NCBI GenBank assembly: GCA_016872595.1
Contig: VGZJ01000033.1
Coordinates: forward strand, 1-32,547
Direction of reading: 5' to 3'
Length of the DNA: 32,547 nucleotides
Origin: Planctomycetota bacterium
GTDB lineage: Bacteria > Planctomycetota > Planctomycetia > Gemmatales > Gemmataceae
Numbering within the stretch: the stretch's first letter is position 1; every line of letters starts with the position of its first letter. Position numbers and translations under genes: made by a program. The notes beneath the pieces were generated by a model. It was given only the letters and a program-made list of their open reading frames with translations. It was not told the DNA's origin and did no database searches. Positions 6,281 through 12,820 of the stretch are shown here, piece after piece.

Positions 6281-7681
6281 TCAGTAGGCGTGCTTCTGCT
6301 TCGAGAACACCATCCGCCACACGGTCAGGAACATGATCCGCAGGTCGAACACCGGGTTCCAGTGGCTGATGTAGTAGAGGTCGAACAGGACGCGCTTGCG
6401 GAGCGACGAGTTGCCGCGCCAGCCGTTCACCTGCGCCCACCCGGTGATCCCGGCCTTCACCGCGTGCCGGGCGTTGTAGTTCGGAATCGACTTCGCGAAC
6501 TGGCTTACGAACACAGGGCGCTCCGGGCGCGGCCCGACGAGGCTCATGTCTCCCCACAACACATTGAAGAACTGGGGCAACTCGTCGAGGTTCGTCGCGC
6601 GCAGGATCGTGCCGAGCCACGTCCGCCGGTCGTCGTTGGCCTTCGCCATCTGTGCTCCGCCGGACTCCGCGTCCACCTTCATGCTGCGGAACTTGAGCAT
6701 CATGAACGAGCGCCCGTTCAGCCCGCAGCGCTCCTGTCGGTACAGCACCGGGCCGGGGCTGGTGAGCTTGATGAGCGCCGCGATCACCGCCATCACCGGC
6801 GCGAGCAGCACGATGGCGACGAGCGAAAGCACGATGTCCATCGCGCGCTTCACGACGACGTTCAGCCCGTGGTGCGGGTTCTCGCGCAGCCCGATCACGT
6901 TCATGCCGTGAATCTGCGTCGTCGTGAAGTTCATGCCGGAAATCGCCGGCAGGTCCGCGATCAGTTGCACATCGACGAGCGTTTGCGACAGTGCCGTGAA
7001 CACGCGCCGCGCGTCCGGGTAGCGGTTCAGCGGCAGCGCGACGAACACGTGTTCGATGTGGTGCCGCTGCACGAGTTCGGGCAGCTCAGCAATCGTGCCC
7101 AGAACCGGCAGGTCAGAGCCGGGGCCGCGGTTGGTCTCGTCTTCCACGAACCCGACCGGCTGGATGCCGGACCAGTTCACGGCGCGGAGCGTGCGCACGG
7201 TGCGCCGCGCGAGCCGCCCGGTGCCCACGATGAGGGCGTGGCTCTGGTTCACGCCGCGGGCGCGGAGCCGGCGCATCGCGGTCCAGCTCGCGCGCCGGGC
7301 CGCAGTGATCCCGACCAGCGCGAACCCGGCGAACATCAGCATCGCGCCGCGCGACTCGTGCTGCGCTTGCCGCGCGAAGCTCGTCGCCATCGCCAGCAGC
7401 GCCATCAGCGCGACGCCCTTCGCTACAGCCGCGAGTTCCTCGCGGAACCGGCGCAGGCGGTGGACCTCGTACATGCCGGCGATGCGGTACGCGATCATAC
7501 CCACGAGCAGCATCAGCGGGAGAGCGCGCACGTATAGCGCGAAGTCGGGCACGCCGCGCTTGACGGTGAACAGCCCGCTCTGGAACCGCACCGCGTACGC
7601 GAGCAGCCACGCCCCGGCGGTCAGGGCCAAGTCCCACAGCAGGAACCACGCGACCAGCGATTGACTGACTCGGCGCACCAT
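6281..7681 (-). CDS. Undecaprenyl-phosphate sugar phosphotransferase (WcaJ/WbaP type)
   Basis: 466 residues. N-terminal membrane helices (first beginning near residue 8, four in about 130 residues) are followed by a Rossmann-like CoA-binding domain (VGTGRLARRTVRTL, FVEDE), one more membrane helix (SLVAIVLLAPVMAVIAALI) and the bacterial sugar transferase domain with LTSPGPVLYRQ, FMMLKFRSM, VGPRPERP and the C-terminal YYISHW....DL. These enzymes sit in the inner membrane and move a sugar phosphate from a nucleotide sugar onto undecaprenyl phosphate, the first step of exopolysaccharide assembly. The ATG at 7681 is preferred over 7849: GGAG lies about 12 bases upstream, the protein starts at the first helix, and the longer form would invade the divergent gene at 7803. 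No other glycan genes are adjacent, so it may be an unlinked initiating enzyme. Confidence 0.9.
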   Translation of the reverse strand: MVRRVSQSLVAWFLLWDLALTAGAWLLAYAVRFQSGLFTVKRGVPDFALYVRALPLMLLVGMIAYRIAGMYEVHRLRRFREELAAVAKGVALMALLAMATSFARQAQHESRGAMLMFAGFALVGITAARRASWTAMRRLRARGVNQSHALIVGTGRLARRTVRTLRAVNWSGIQPVGFVEDETNRGPGSDLPVLGTIAELPELVQRHHIEHVFVALPLNRYPDARRVFTALSQTLVDVQLIADLPAISGMNFTTTQIHGMNVIGLRENPHHGLNVVVKRAMDIVLSLVAIVLLAPVMAVIAALIKLTSPGPVLYRQERCGLNGRSFMMLKFRSMKVDAESGGAQMAKANDDRRTWLGTILRATNLDELPQFFNVLWGDMSLVGPRPERPVFVSQFAKSIPNYNARHAVKAGITGWAQVNGWRGNSSLRKRVLFDLYYISHWNPVFDLRIMFLTVWRMVFSKQKHAY

Positions 7682-8014: not shown

Positions 8015-9868
8015 ATGGGGTTGTACCGCTGGGCGCTGTTGAGGGTCGCGGGCATCATGGGCCTGCTGAAGCCGCGGCGCTACCGCGTCACGCTGTTCGG
8101 CGAGTCGCTGGGCACGTACCTGATGCCGCGCGGCCACCACTTGGCGAACCCCAACGGCGAGAACCGGCCCGTGCTGACACGGCCGTTCAAGTCGTCGCCG
8201 GTTCTCGAACAGTTCTACCTGTACTGGGTCGAACAGAAGGCCGACGGCGCGGCGATCATGGTTCATTGGGTTCCGGAGACGCCGGACGAGACCGAGAGCG
8301 CGCACAGATTCTTCAACGGCGCGCACGGGCTGCGCGCCGACGGCACCCCGGACCCCGCGAAACAGCAGCCGCTCCCGGCGCGCACCAGCGAAGAGCTGCG
8401 CCTGATCGCCGCCGTGCGCGCGGACCCGGACGCCGAGCAACCGTACCTCGACTACGCCAAGTTCCTCAGCGCGAAGAGGGACACCTACGGCGAGTACCTG
8501 CGGATGACCTGCGAAGTGGTCAAACTGCCGGAGGGCAGCCCACAGCGCGAGAAACTCGAAGAGAAGCGGTTCGAGTACGCCCAGAAGCACGGGGCGCGGT
8601 GGACCGTCGGCCTCACCGACCTCAACTTCTTCCCCGGATTCAGCTTCGCACAGCCGGAAAACGCCTTCTACGCGGAGAACTTCTTCAGCAAGAAGGGCGT
8701 GATCGAGGAGATCGACTTGCACTGTGAGGCCAACGTCTTCCCGCACAACACGGCGAGGTTCTTCCACGCCGCGCCGTTCCTGCGACGCCTCTCGATCAAC
8801 AACCTCGACATCACGGTCGCGGACGTGGGCGCGGTGCCGCAAATGGCCCAGATCGAATCCCTCAACCTGATGATCGGTGGCGGCACCGCGGACGATTTCC
8901 GCCGGTTCGCGGCGTCCGAGAACCTCGGCGGCCTGCGGACACTCGCAATTAGTTACTCCCCGGCCGAGCCGGACGGGATCGCGCACCTCGCCGACGCGAA
9001 GTGGCTGTTGCAACTGAACTCGCTCACCCTCCCCTGCGGTTCCCTGAGCGACGACGGCATCGAAGCGTTCGCGGACAGCCCGAACATCGCGAACCTGCGC
9101 GTACTGATCGGCGCGATGCGGAACCTGACCGACCGCGGCGCGGGCGCGCTGTGCCGCACGCCGCACGCCGCGAGGCTCACCACCTATTACCTCGACCGCT
9201 GCCCGATCACCAGCGCGGCACTGAGCGCGCTCGCCACCGCCACCTTCGCGCCGCGCCTCGAACGGATCGGTTTGTCTTCGTGCCCGTTCGACGTCGCCGG
9301 CGCGCGCGCCCTTGCCGGGGGCGCGTTCCCCGCGCTCCAGAGCCTGTCGGTTTCAGGGGGCGAGTGGTACGACCAATACGGAGAAGTCCATCGCGTTCCG
9401 CCCTACGGCGACGAGGTGCTTGCCCCACTTCTCGCCGCACCGTGGTTCCCCGCGCTCACGCACTTAGACCTTTCGAGCACCGGTGCGACCGATGTCACAG
9501 CCCGCGCCCTCGCGGCGCGCGGGTGCTGCGCCGTGCGGGGGCTGTCGCTGCATGGGAACCAACTCACCGACGCCGGCGTTTCGGCACTGATGGGGTCGAA
9601 GTACGTCACCAAGCTCACGCAACTGTCGCTCGCGAGCAACCCGTTCGGCACGGCCGGGGCGAAGGCTGTCGCCGACGCACCGATGACCGACCTCGAAGAC
9701 CTGAACCTGTCAGACGTGAAGATCGGCCCGGCCGGGGCGAAGGCGCTGGCCGCGTCCCCGCACCTGAAGAAGCTGAAAAAGCTCAGCGTCTCGGAGGAAC
9801 ACGTCGGCCTCGCCGGGCGCGAAGCGCTGATGAAGCGTTTCGGGAACGAAGTGGTCACGTGCTACTGA
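8015..9868 (+). CDS. TIGR02996 domain protein with leucine-rich repeats
   Basis: 617 residues. Residues about 123-170 (SEELRLIAAV..DP.....YLDYAKFLSA....GEYLRM) match the TIGR02996 'repeat-companion' domain, a module found mainly in Gemmata-like planctomycetes at the N-terminal side of repeat proteins. From about residue 250 to the end there are ribonuclease-inhibitor type leucine-rich repeats of about 24-28 residues, such as LSLHGNQLTDAGVSAL and LSLASNPFGTAGAKAV. The first 120 residues carry no recognised domain. Likely a cytoplasmic protein-protein interaction scaffold. GAGGAG at 8003-8008 supports the ATG at 8015. It lies directly upstream of the retron region; a functional link is possible but not shown. 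Confidence 0.85.
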   Translation: MGLYRWALLRVAGIMGLLKPRRYRVTLFGESLGTYLMPRGHHLANPNGENRPVLTRPFKSSPVLEQFYLYWVEQKADGAAIMVHWVPETPDETESAHRFFNGAHGLRADGTPDPAKQQPLPARTSEELRLIAAVRADPDAEQPYLDYAKFLSAKRDTYGEYLRMTCEVVKLPEGSPQREKLEEKRFEYAQKHGARWTVGLTDLNFFPGFSFAQPENAFYAENFFSKKGVIEEIDLHCEANVFPHNTARFFHAAPFLRRLSINNLDITVADVGAVPQMAQIESLNLMIGGGTADDFRRFAASENLGGLRTLAISYSPAEPDGIAHLADAKWLLQLNSLTLPCGSLSDDGIEAFADSPNIANLRVLIGAMRNLTDRGAGALCRTPHAARLTTYYLDRCPITSAALSALATATFAPRLERIGLSSCPFDVAGARALAGGAFPALQSLSVSGGEWYDQYGEVHRVPPYGDEVLAPLLAAPWFPALTHLDLSSTGATDVTARALAARGCCAVRGLSLHGNQLTDAGVSALMGSKYVTKLTQLSLASNPFGTAGAKAVADAPMTDLEDLNLSDVKIGPAGAKALAASPHLKKLKKLSVSEEHVGLAGREALMKRFGNEVVTCY

Positions 9869-9923
9869 CCCACAACGGAGGTTGACCGACCCGCGGGCGC
9901 GTGCGACGATTACCCCGCTGCGG

Positions 9924-10076
9924 CGGGCCGAGCACGGCGGGACGCGGGTTCGCTGAACCGGCCGAACGCCACTCCGGGGTTACCCCGGGGTGCGCCCAAC
10001 ACGTGACAGACGAGCGCGCGACGAACTGGGCGCTTCCACGCCCGCCCCGTCGCGCCGGCCGAGACTCGTCGGCCCG
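9924..10076 (+). ncRNA. Candidate retron msr-msd RNA
   Basis: This lies directly upstream of a retron reverse transcriptase, where the msr-msd RNA is normally encoded. CGGGCCGA (9924-9931) is complementary to TCGGCCCG (10069-10076), which could form the a1/a2 stem, and AGC (9931-9933) follows at once with G9932 as a possible branching guanosine. Inside are a small hairpin (9947-9951 with 9955-9959), a strong hairpin (9971-9979 with 9983-9991, loop TTA) and a longer stem GCGCCCA/TGGGCGC (9992-9998 with 10027-10033). GC-rich DNA makes such pairings common, and 10057-10062 can instead pair locally with 10069-10074. Boundaries are therefore tentative; the whole gap is 9869-10104. Confidence 0.35.
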
Positions 10077-10104
10077 TTCGCGGCTCTTTTCCACACAAAT
10101 CTTG

Positions 10105-11487
10105 ATGGACCCACAACAGCGATTCGTGCGGAACATCGCGGCAGGAATGCTCGCGGGAGAATGGTCGCGCGCCGGGTTGCGCGACGCGATCCGCCGCGCG
10201 ACCGGGCGCGAGTACCGCTGGGCGTCGCCCCTCGTCACGCGCCTCCTCGCGGCACACATTGAACCGCCGAGTTCTATCGCCCTGCTCGATGTGCTCGTGC
10301 GCGATACGACTTTCGCGGGCGTGTTGGCGCGGCTCGCAGGAGCGCGCACTGCCGGCGACCGCTACCCGCGTCGCACGTTGTTCGCCGTGCCGGGCGAGGC
10401 CATTCCCCCCGCGCCGACGTGGAACGCCGACCTGCCGCGCTGGGACACCGAACACGACTGCGCCGACGCGCTCGGCGTCGCGCTTCCCCAACTGCTTTGG
10501 CTCGCGGACCCGACCGGGCGAAACCCGTACCGGCGCGACGAGACCTTGCGCACGTACCGCGCGCGGTGGGTGCTGAAACCGCGCGGCGGCGCGCGGTTGC
10601 TCGAAGTGCCAAAGCCCCTGCTCCGCCGTACGCAGCGCCGACTCGTGGACCTGTTGTTGAATCGCGTCGCGCCGCACCCGGCCGCGCACGGCTTCCGCGC
10701 CGGGCGCTCGGCGGTCACGAACGCGGCCGAACACTGTGGGCGCGCCGCCGTACTGCGGTTCGACCTCACGGACTTCTTTTCCTCAATCGTCGCGGGCCGT
10801 ACGTTCGGGCTGTTCCGCAACCTCGGCTACCCGGAACCCGTCGTGCGGTTACTCGGCGCGCTCTGCACGACGCGATTGCCGCGCGCCGTGTGGGACGTGC
10901 GCCCGCACCCCACGGCCGACGGCTCCGATTACCCGGCGTGGGTTCGAGTCAACACCCGGCACTTGCCGCAAGGCGCGCCGACCTCGCCGGCCCTCGCGAA
11001 CCTGATCGCGTACCGCCTCGACCGCCGGCTCGCGCGCCTCGCCGCCGCGTGCGGCGCGACCTACACGCGATACGCGGACGACCTGACGTTTTCCGGCGGG
11101 CCGGGCCTGCTGCGCGCGGCCCGCGGATTGGCCCGGCGCGTCGCCTTGATTGCGGCCGAGGAAGGGTTCCGTGTGAACCGCGGCAAGTCGCGCGCGTACG
11201 GGCGCGGCACGCGCCAGACCGTGACCGGAATTGTCACGAACGTGCGTCCGAACGTCACGCGGGCCGAGTTCGACCTGCTGAAAGCGATCCTGACGAACTG
11301 CACGCGCCACGGCCCGGCGGGGCAGAACCGCGCGCAGGTACCGGACTTCCGCGCACACCTCGCGGGCCGCGTGGCTCACGTCGCCGGGGTGAACTCGGTT
11401 CGCGGGCGCAAGTTGTGGGAGCTCTTCGACCGCATCGTGTGGCCCGTCGACGAATCAAGTTCCATGATAGACCTGAAAGACTCCTAA
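10105..11487 (+). CDS. Retron-type reverse transcriptase
   Basis: 460 residues. The RT palm motifs appear in order: HGFRAGRS, DLTDFFSSI (from D220), LPQGAPTSPALANL (from 287), YTRYADDLTFSG with catalytic YADD at 323-326, and VNRGKSR. Two retron-specific signatures are present: NAAEH at 206-210 (the NAxxH motif of region X) and VTG at 373-375 (region Y). It should reverse-transcribe a partner RNA into a branched RNA-DNA hybrid. About 100-110 residues precede the usual start of retron RTs (W.TEHDCADALGV at about 113) and match nothing I know. No group II intron maturase or endonuclease domain is present. The ATG at 10105 is preferred because the upstream in-frame sequence (from a GTG at 10003 or from 9901) is Pro/Arg-rich and hairpin-rich; no strong ribosome binding site decides the start. 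Confidence 0.88.
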   Translation: MDPQQRFVRNIAAGMLAGEWSRAGLRDAIRRATGREYRWASPLVTRLLAAHIEPPSSIALLDVLVRDTTFAGVLARLAGARTAGDRYPRRTLFAVPGEAIPPAPTWNADLPRWDTEHDCADALGVALPQLLWLADPTGRNPYRRDETLRTYRARWVLKPRGGARLLEVPKPLLRRTQRRLVDLLLNRVAPHPAAHGFRAGRSAVTNAAEHCGRAAVLRFDLTDFFSSIVAGRTFGLFRNLGYPEPVVRLLGALCTTRLPRAVWDVRPHPTADGSDYPAWVRVNTRHLPQGAPTSPALANLIAYRLDRRLARLAAACGATYTRYADDLTFSGGPGLLRAARGLARRVALIAAEEGFRVNRGKSRAYGRGTRQTVTGIVTNVRPNVTRAEFDLLKAILTNCTRHGPAGQNRAQVPDFRAHLAGRVAHVAGVNSVRGRKLWELFDRIVWPVDESSSMIDLKDS

Positions 11488-11563: not shown

Positions 11564-12820
11564 ATGCTCCCAGCCACGGCACTGCCGAACGACGCCCGGA
11601 CCGAGCAGCGCGCGCGCCTTCGCGTGCTCGTCGATGCGATTCGCGCGAGCAACGACTTCTATCGGCGCAAGTTCGCCGCCGTTGCGGCGGACAATCTCGA
11701 ATCGCTGCCGTTCACGACGAAAGCCGAGTTGGTCGCGGATCAGGCCGCGAACCCGCCTTACGGCACCAACCTCACGTTTCCACTCGAACGGTACTCGCGC
11801 CTGCACCAAACGTCGGGCACGAGCACGGGCACGCCGCTACGCTGGCTCGACACCGCGGACTCTTGGGAGTGGATTCTGGGGTGCTGGCGCGTGAACTTTG
11901 AGCTGATGGGCCTGAAGGCCGGCGACCGGCTGTTCTTCCCGTTCTCATTCGGGCCGTTTCTGGGGTTTTGGAGCGCGTTCGATTCCGCCACGCGCGCCGG
12001 GTTCCTCGGCATCTCCGGGGGCGGCATGACCAGCGTCGCGCGCCTGCGCTGTTTGCTCGAACACCGCTGCACGGTTCTGTTCGCCACACCGACGTACGCG
12101 CTGCATTTGAGCGAGGTGGCCGCGAAAGAGGGGCTAGACATCGCCGGTAGTCCCGTGCGGGCGGTTGTGGTCGCGGGCGAACCCGGCGGCACGATCCCGG
12201 CCACGCGCGCCCGCATCGAACAGCTTTGGGGCGCGCGCGTTTTCGACCACTACGGCATGACCGAAATCGGCCCGGTCGCGGTTGAGGCAGACGCGCGGCC
12301 CGGCCAGATGTACTTATTAGAGCGTGACTACCTCGCGGAGGTGATCGACCCCGCGACCGGGGCCGCGGTTCCGGACGGCACGGCCGGCGAGTTGGTGCTA
12401 ACGAACTTGGGGCGAATCGGAAGCCCGCTGATCCGCTACCGCACCGGCGACTTGGTTAGGATCGCGACGGACCCCGACCCGACCGGGCGCGCGTGGCGGC
12501 GGCTTGACGGTGGCATTCTGGGCCGCGCGGATGATATGATTCACGTTCGGGGGAACAACGTGTACCCGAGCGCCATCGAGGCCATTGTGCGCCGGTTCGC
12601 CGAGGTCGCCGAGTACCGCGTCCACGTGAACCGGGCGAACCCGCTCGCCGACCTGCGGTTGGAGATCGAGCCCGCGACCGGCGACGGGCAAGCGCTCGCA
12701 GATTCCATCGGCCGCGCGGTGCGCGACGAGTTGCTCTTTCGCGTCGACGTGACCCCCTGCCCGCCCGGATCGCTGCCCCGGTTCGAGATGAAAGCCCGCC
12801 GAGTCATACACCAAAGCTAA
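11564..12820 (+). CDS. PaaK-like adenylate-forming ligase
   Basis: 418 residues, the length of phenylacetate-CoA ligases. The ATP-binding loop is SGTSTGTP at 84-91, the YGMTEIGP motif and the RYRTGDL motif are present, and the C-terminal small domain is recognisable from RGNNVYPSAIE onward. The family activates a carboxylic acid as an acyl-adenylate and passes it to CoA or another thiol. The acid used here is unknown; there are no phenylacetate-degradation genes nearby. GAGG at 11554-11557 supports the start. It begins 76 bases after the retron RT stop on the same strand, so it could share its transcript, but PaaK-like enzymes are not a standard retron effector that I know of. Confidence 0.87.
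   Translation: MLPATALPNDARTEQRARLRVLVDAIRASNDFYRRKFAAVAADNLESLPFTTKAELVADQAANPPYGTNLTFPLERYSRLHQTSGTSTGTPLRWLDTADSWEWILGCWRVNFELMGLKAGDRLFFPFSFGPFLGFWSAFDSATRAGFLGISGGGMTSVARLRCLLEHRCTVLFATPTYALHLSEVAAKEGLDIAGSPVRAVVVAGEPGGTIPATRARIEQLWGARVFDHYGMTEIGPVAVEADARPGQMYLLERDYLAEVIDPATGAAVPDGTAGELVLTNLGRIGSPLIRYRTGDLVRIATDPDPTGRAWRRLDGGILGRADDMIHVRGNNVYPSAIEAIVRRFAEVAEYRVHVNRANPLADLRLEIEPATGDGQALADSIGRAVRDELLFRVDVTPCPPGSLPRFEMKARRVIHQS

Follow-up and report, generated by a model that had tools for sequence, protein, structure and literature searches.

Retrons and their msDNA were first discovered in Myxococcus xanthus and are today mostly explained as tripartite toxin systems in which a third gene does the killing; the known fusions of a retron reverse transcriptase (RT) to a further domain include those with toprim, TIR or protease domains. 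According to PMC6868368, a retron RNA is marked by a conserved, AGC-like priming G where its a1 arm ends, together with one to three msr hairpins and one long msd hairpin, and 'standard' cassettes comprise msr-msd and RT alone, lacking an accessory open reading frame (ORF). Type XIII, in which RT_XIII is paired with SWIM_XIII and with which Retron-Mxa2 (Mx65) and Retron-Mxa1 (Mx162) group in the tree described below, resembles the retron described here in forming a neighbouring clade and in its long N-terminal extension. The same source reports an AGC-type priming site for Mx65 and Mx162, a further likeness to the present class, and for Mx65 GAGC priming, an altered region X and an N-terminal extension (PMC6868368).

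The locus lies in a 32,547-nucleotide stretch of planctomycete DNA (assembly GCA_016872595.1, contig VGZJ01000033.1), the whole of which is called the window below. It contains a structured RNA and, downstream of it, an RT gene, whose joint identity as a retron is close to certain. The reading favoured here, held as probable, is that the window holds a complete two-part retron, most likely a phage-triggered defence particle without a linked effector gene. The features are as follows.

8015 to 9868, forward strand: leucine-rich-repeat (LRR) protein, a bystander, present in genome G018 without the retron
9912 to 10088, forward strand: retron non-coding RNA (msr-msd), 177 bases, 99.2 bits with covariance model R1, the window being one of its 26 training rows
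9916 to 9931, forward strand: a1 arm of the long closing stem, pairing with 10069-10085, double changes in 14 of 14 modelled pairs
9932, forward strand: predicted priming (branch) guanosine, in the AGC at 9931-9933 at the a1 end, after the priming rule in PMC6868368
9935 to 9971, forward strand: msr hairpin 1, variable in sequence, from single-sequence folds and outside the modelled pairs
9972 to 9990, forward strand: msr hairpin 2, CTCCGGGGTTACCCCGGGG, the best-conserved part, 1.56 bits per column and 99.7% of cells paired
10016 to 10055, forward strand: msd hairpin, predicted template of the RT-DNA, two covarying helices with 93.0 and 91.0% of cells paired
10069 to 10085, forward strand: a2 arm, pairing with a1
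10105 to 11487, forward strand: retron RT, 460 aa, from profile, PDB sequence, AlphaFold2 and Foldseek matches
10105 to 10344, forward strand: N-terminal five-helix domain of the RT (residues 1-80, AlphaFold2), no recognised relative
11564 to 12820, forward strand: PaaK-like AMP-binding ligase, a bystander, present in G018 without the retron

The Reverse Transcriptase

The RT is encoded by an ORF of 460 residues that opens with an ATG at 10105 and closes with a stop ending at 11487, and it matches Pfam RVT_1 (E 6.8e-17). Its PADLOC scores are highest for two models of unassigned retron RTs, RT_other (480 bits) and RT_outgroup (450), followed by RT_XIII (305), and its top PDB matches by sequence are retron RTs; in another RT profile library the best retron model reaches 171 bits against 44 for group II and 31 for DRT2. 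An AlphaFold2 model, built from an alignment of the window RT with 48 loci from the genome scan described below, has a pLDDT of 91.1 and a pTM of 0.77, and Foldseek searches with it return retron RTs at ranks 1-18, a group II intron RT appearing at rank 19. Placement outside the retrons, an outcome that the original prediction had raised against itself, is countered by these profile and fold scores, while the trees described below held retron RTs only.

The motifs named in that prediction, NAAEH (residues 206-210), YADD (323-326) and VTG (373-375), are all present in the window RT. Its description of NAxxH and VTG as retron hallmarks suits this protein, which has both, but carries over poorly to the clade of its relatives, here called class A, in which VTG is kept in 13 of 49 aligned proteins, LAG stands instead in 20 of 49, and region X has F, H or Y where the Asn would be in 31 of 32 rows (the 12 commonest patterns, which cover 32 of the 49 rows). 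The region X His is invariant in the clade and YADD is found in 47 of the 49. Because VTG and NAxxH are so often altered within the clade, the motifs are weaker evidence for a retron than the RNA.

A Conserved Structured RNA Upstream of the RT

The RNA has the anatomy of a retron, with an a1/a2 inverted repeat, a priming G in AGC, two msr hairpins and one msd hairpin, and it agrees with the priming-G rule given in PMC6868368: a G stands at position 9932 in 70 of 73 aligned rows, and within AGC in 56. An alignment of the sequences preceding 13 planctomycete RTs, among them the window RT, revealed a block shared by 12, and single folds converged on one common shape. The block is absent at locus L047 (G050), where a class-A RNA lies at 6940-7094 on the opposite strand, about 0.9 kb past the 3' end of the RT, in what may be an inversion or a different pairing.

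In a MAFFT alignment of 26 rows (A4), from which the structure itself was taken, double changes occur in 28 of 35 pairs and 93.2% of cells are paired, compared with 38-49% in slid versions, and none of 500 shuffles was as good. In an alignment of 73 rows (A6), fitted to the structure of the covariance model, the corresponding values are 31 of 35 pairs and 93.8%, with 37-47% in slid versions and again none of 500 shuffles as good. Conservation is uneven along the molecule, the msd stem holding 1.16-1.24 bits per column vs 0.33 for msr hairpin 1. The RNA ends 17 bases before the RT start codon in the window; by the start rule used, the gap measures 7-15 bases at 35 of the 65 other loci.

No Rfam 15 family matched the window at its gathering threshold, and in 10 loci the one gathering match, in L116, was to a ureB sRNA, which is unrelated. 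Near the element Rfam gave two matches below threshold, the first at the LRR end and the second within the RT gene; both resemble chance matches and were set aside. The literature covered, consisting of titles, abstract openings and passages (those of PMC4244168, PMC12548924, PMC12887533 and PMC8867640 among them) and taking in neither Mestre et al. 2020 nor the 2024 retron census, contained no paper on the class-A RNA or on planctomycete retrons of class A.

Distribution of the RNA and RT Pair

A scan of GTDB genomes with class alignment A2 confirmed at least 583 relatives, the best 80 of which, many from MAGs, were kept. These best 80 come from at least six phyla, comprising Gemmataceae and other Planctomycetota; Burkholderia, Paraburkholderia, Oxalobacteraceae and other Pseudomonadota; and Acidobacteriota, Actinomycetota, Verrucomicrobiota and Myxococcota. 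The original prediction had staked its case on homologs having a conserved upstream RNA, and the RNA lies upstream of the RT on the same strand at 78 of the 80 loci (the best 80 of at least 583), including 57 of the 59 outside the R1 training set, many of these 59 being near relatives of the 26 training sequences, 21 of which fall within the 80. The two remaining loci are L119, which has no RNA match and where the RT match begins at locus base 36, and L135, with a match on the minus strand only. In a set of 99 relatives that included the window's genome, the RNA was matched in 21, and coordinates place it upstream of the RT on its strand in 19 of these.

Presence within taxa is patchy. The RNA was found in 6 of 19 genomes of the window's genus and in 9 of 59 genomes of the family of G104, and a full-length class-A RT match in 13 of the 27 genomes covered from the genus of G144, stricter filters being applied in searches spanning more than 40 genomes. 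Searches of IMG/VR found 71 loci with best-segment identities of at most 36% and no close viral carrier.

Variant loci were also encountered. Sub-class A' (L050-L054 and L057), from another planctomycete family, has a divergent RNA (40-49 bits) of the same anatomy upstream of its RT. At L056 (G013) a complete class-A RNA (100 bits) adjoins an RT broken across several frames. A partial class-A RNA (G021:C80:18533-18616; model positions 59-142, 54 bits), in a genome where no RT was matched at E 1e-20, may be a remnant or an RNA acting in trans.

Neighbouring Genes and the Empty Site

The boundaries of the cassette are set by G018, a close relative, in which the genes for a UndP-glucose phosphotransferase-like protein, the LRR protein and the PaaK-like ligase and a PQQ gene stand in the same order as in the window (identities to the window of 54% for LRR, 87% for PaaK and 84% for PQQ). 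From the LRR stop to the PaaK start there are 86 bases in G018, with no RNA or RT; in the window there are 1,695, filled by the RNA and the RT. The G018 assembly is 65% complete and its contig is unbroken across the empty site. Because G018 carries both flanking genes without the cassette, the LRR and PaaK-like genes are bystanders and are ruled out as effectors; the original prediction had called neither a usual retron partner. In G016, fragments of the RT remain between the LRR and PaaK genes (residues 413-446, E 1.8e-12; 276-295, E 6.4e-5). In G002, G008 and G014 the cassette adjoins the same phosphotransferase-like gene, followed by a gene that we take, from its sequence, to be phosphoglucomutase-like. 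The phosphoglucomutase-like, UndP-glucose phosphotransferase-like and LRR genes were rejected as companions on comparison of 21 planctomycete loci, being near the RT only in the window's genus.

A wider search for a partner, in which ORFs lying up to 5.5 kb from the RT at the best 80 of at least 583 loci were clustered with blastp, yielded no companion: an ABC ATPase, at varying positions in 12 loci with 6 taxon labels, makes up the largest cluster that crosses genera, and the others among the 16 listed clusters bring together 2-3 taxon labels each, nearly all from related genera, and reflect host synteny. Scans covered 133 neighbouring ORFs from 34 of these 80 loci, chosen by a rough ORF rule that left out frames above 700 aa; no Pfam family occurs at more than three loci and no PADLOC family at more than one. 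Single neighbours matched defence models such as RtcR, Fic, subtilase, DrmC, pAgo/SIR2 and ZorB, none of which recurs, and most neighbours are of housekeeping type. The linked effector gene by which a tripartite retron is recognised was not found in the loci examined, and no gene was seen to travel with the RNA and RT pair, in keeping with the earlier remark that the effector is not obvious. As a positive control, the C2 and C8 retrons of the window's own genome each have a SWIM_XIII gene upstream, at more than 600 bits. A fused effector might conceivably sit in the N-terminal domain of the RT.

The N-Terminal Domain

The five-helix domain that precedes the RT proper has a mean column identity of 30% over 45 rows. 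In the PDB no sequence or fold relative stands out (best Foldseek E 4.7, best VIA Z 4.4), which is not proof of a new fold. A profile of the domain, run against 30 genome entries (two of which, G085 and G115, give identical places and look like one genome), recovered the RT itself at E <1e-6 in 29, the best other match having an E of 1.3e-3.

The idea that such a domain could be an adaptor, or effector-associated domain (EAD), was taken from PMC7159879. Pfam searches of 45 members gave weak matches to EAD2 in one (E 0.0052) and to EAD1 in another (E 0.022). An hhalign comparison with nine EAD1 stretches gave a probability of 0.5%, next to 0.4% for the reversed profile and up to 0.4% for 30 shuffles, and EAD1 was not found in a genome search of G000, the window's genome. 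An EAD at the RT N-terminus thus has weak Pfam matches in its favour that gained no support from hhalign, the search for second copies or the genome search.

Relationship to Type XIII and the Myxococcus Retrons

Two trees were built, both with retron RTs only as rows. In the 85-row tree, class A and the divergent A' rows (five of L050-L057) occupy one side of a branch with support 100/99. In the 45-row tree with references, which has midpoint roots, Mx65 and Mx162 join type XIII-like rows (100/97) and class A stands apart at 96/85 (100/99 with A'), grouping with the type XIII side at 86/85. A type XIII retron is recognised by RT_XIII as best model and an adjoining SWIM_XIII gene, whereas the window RT scores 480 bits with RT_other vs 305 with RT_XIII, its N-terminal region extends beyond the coverage of RT_XIII, and no SWIM gene adjoins the class-A element. 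The RNAs differ in length as well, at 177 bases in the window vs a reported 241 for the Mx162 transcript. RT_other and RT_outgroup are the best and second-best models for all eight class-A or A' proteins scanned, but no RNA, partner or mechanism is attached to them in the tables examined. The 'standard' cassettes, as presented in PMC6868368, share with class A the composition of msr-msd and RT alone; class A differs in having its own RNA, its N-terminal domain and a spread over at least six phyla.

Mx65 itself, a candidate on account of its reported GAGC priming, region X and N-terminal extension, was considered as a member of class A and rejected, its RT grouping with type XIII and being 40% identical to the class-A query. 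Contig 27 of G177 holds an exact 427-residue ORF at the Mx65 RT coordinates given in a published table (PMC8934634), and on this ground G177 is taken as M. xanthus DSM 16526, the type strain. A 485-residue ORF of the same genome is presumably the Mx162 RT. Contig 5 of G177 carries a class-A RT with its RNA, and the inferred type strain thus apparently has a class-A retron besides Mx65 and Mx162. Next after this retron (L319, 7001-8521), the opposite strand encodes an Mrr-type restriction endonuclease and carries an RNase H-like gene; RNase H acts in msDNA maturation, according to PMC6868368.

The window's genome has further retron RTs on C2 (L058) and C8 (L059), with type XIII SWIM genes upstream, and the C8 RT and a C2-type ortholog (L065) have RT_XIII as their best model. 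Upstream of the RT at the C2 locus, a 16-bp inverted repeat that spans 206 bases and carries GAGAC at its inner end may belong to an RNA of its own. A fourth RVT_1 match in this genome, on C354 (L004), was missed by the class-A query. L071-L073, from the window's genus, make up another RT class, whose long N-terminus may be HEAT-like and which falls outside the A and B+C clades in the tree; the best model for L073 is RT_XIII, at 365 bits.

Possible Functions of the Two-Part Retron

By analogy with established retron biochemistry, the RNA at 9912-10088 would be transcribed upstream of the RT and bound by it, probably through the conserved GGGGUUACCCC hairpin. The 2'-OH of G9932, where the a1/a2 stem ends, would prime DNA synthesis, and the msd hairpin would be copied back toward the msr, giving some 60-70 bases of DNA that stay linked to the RNA and bound to the RT. 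The output of this putative ribonucleoprotein would most likely be supplied either by the RT itself, through its five-helix N-terminus, or by some host protein whose gene lies elsewhere. A role of the element in defence is likely, and patchy presence together with decayed copies fits an accessory gene for defence better than a housekeeping gene; an effector role for the N-terminal domain is proposed only tentatively. Speaking against defence are that no defence family recurs beside the element, that IMG/VR gave no close viral carrier, and that the searches with the N-terminal domain gave no relative of known function.

A domesticated retron whose msDNA serves the host in regulation or stress, and hence needs no effector, is a rather unlikely explanation, to which several observations nevertheless lend weight: the RNA occurs exactly once per genome in 23 of 23 hosts, the codon GC3 of the RT gene (0.863) is like that of its neighbours (0.842-0.912), and the msd stem is better conserved than msr hairpin 1. 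The housekeeping-type neighbours and the single copy also suit such a role. Against it, the element looks dispensable, with 6 of 19 genomes of the genus carrying it, a broken copy in G013, a remnant in G016 and the empty site of G018.

That the effector is encoded elsewhere and shared, for instance with type XIII systems that the genome also carries, is improbable, even with two SWIM_XIII genes in the window's genome and the grouping of class A with type XIII. SWIM_XIII was matched in just 17 of 36 class-A hosts (G116 marginally, E 6.4e-4), so that its action in trans would not be general; the 19 hosts with no match include all seven Burkholderia and Paraburkholderia entries. The 30 genome entries likewise gave no convincing second copy of the N-terminal domain.

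Retention as a selfish element of no benefit would fit a minimal RNA and RT cassette with a clean empty site, but is highly improbable when RNA structure and RT are conserved across phyla and the single copy per genome gives no sign of amplification. An RT of some other class (group II-like, DRT or DGR) with a cognate RNA, for which altered VTG and NAxxH motifs and trees of retron RTs only leave a little room, is barely credible beside an a1/a2 stem with its priming AGC, 18 retron RTs ranked ahead of any other RT by Foldseek, and the 171 bits of the best retron model.

Implications

Within the favoured reading, a two-part retron acting in phage defence, a bolder version is possible though doubtful, in which sensing and effector action both fall to the RT: its N-terminal domain would be released or reshaped when a phage disturbs the msDNA, one gene and one RNA would suffice for immunity, and a third msDNA, so far unreported, would be made by M. 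xanthus. If true, the retron mechanism would need a single gene, would differ from the known toprim, TIR and protease fusions, and would be present in at least six phyla. The class-A RNA forms a family matched by no Rfam 15 model in the searches made, and so compact an RNA with so wide a host range could interest genome-editing work. The analysis further predicts an additional msDNA in the M. xanthus type strain. For the retrons as a family, a clade of such breadth, whose two-part unit has its limits marked by an empty site, would make the role of effector-less retrons directly testable.
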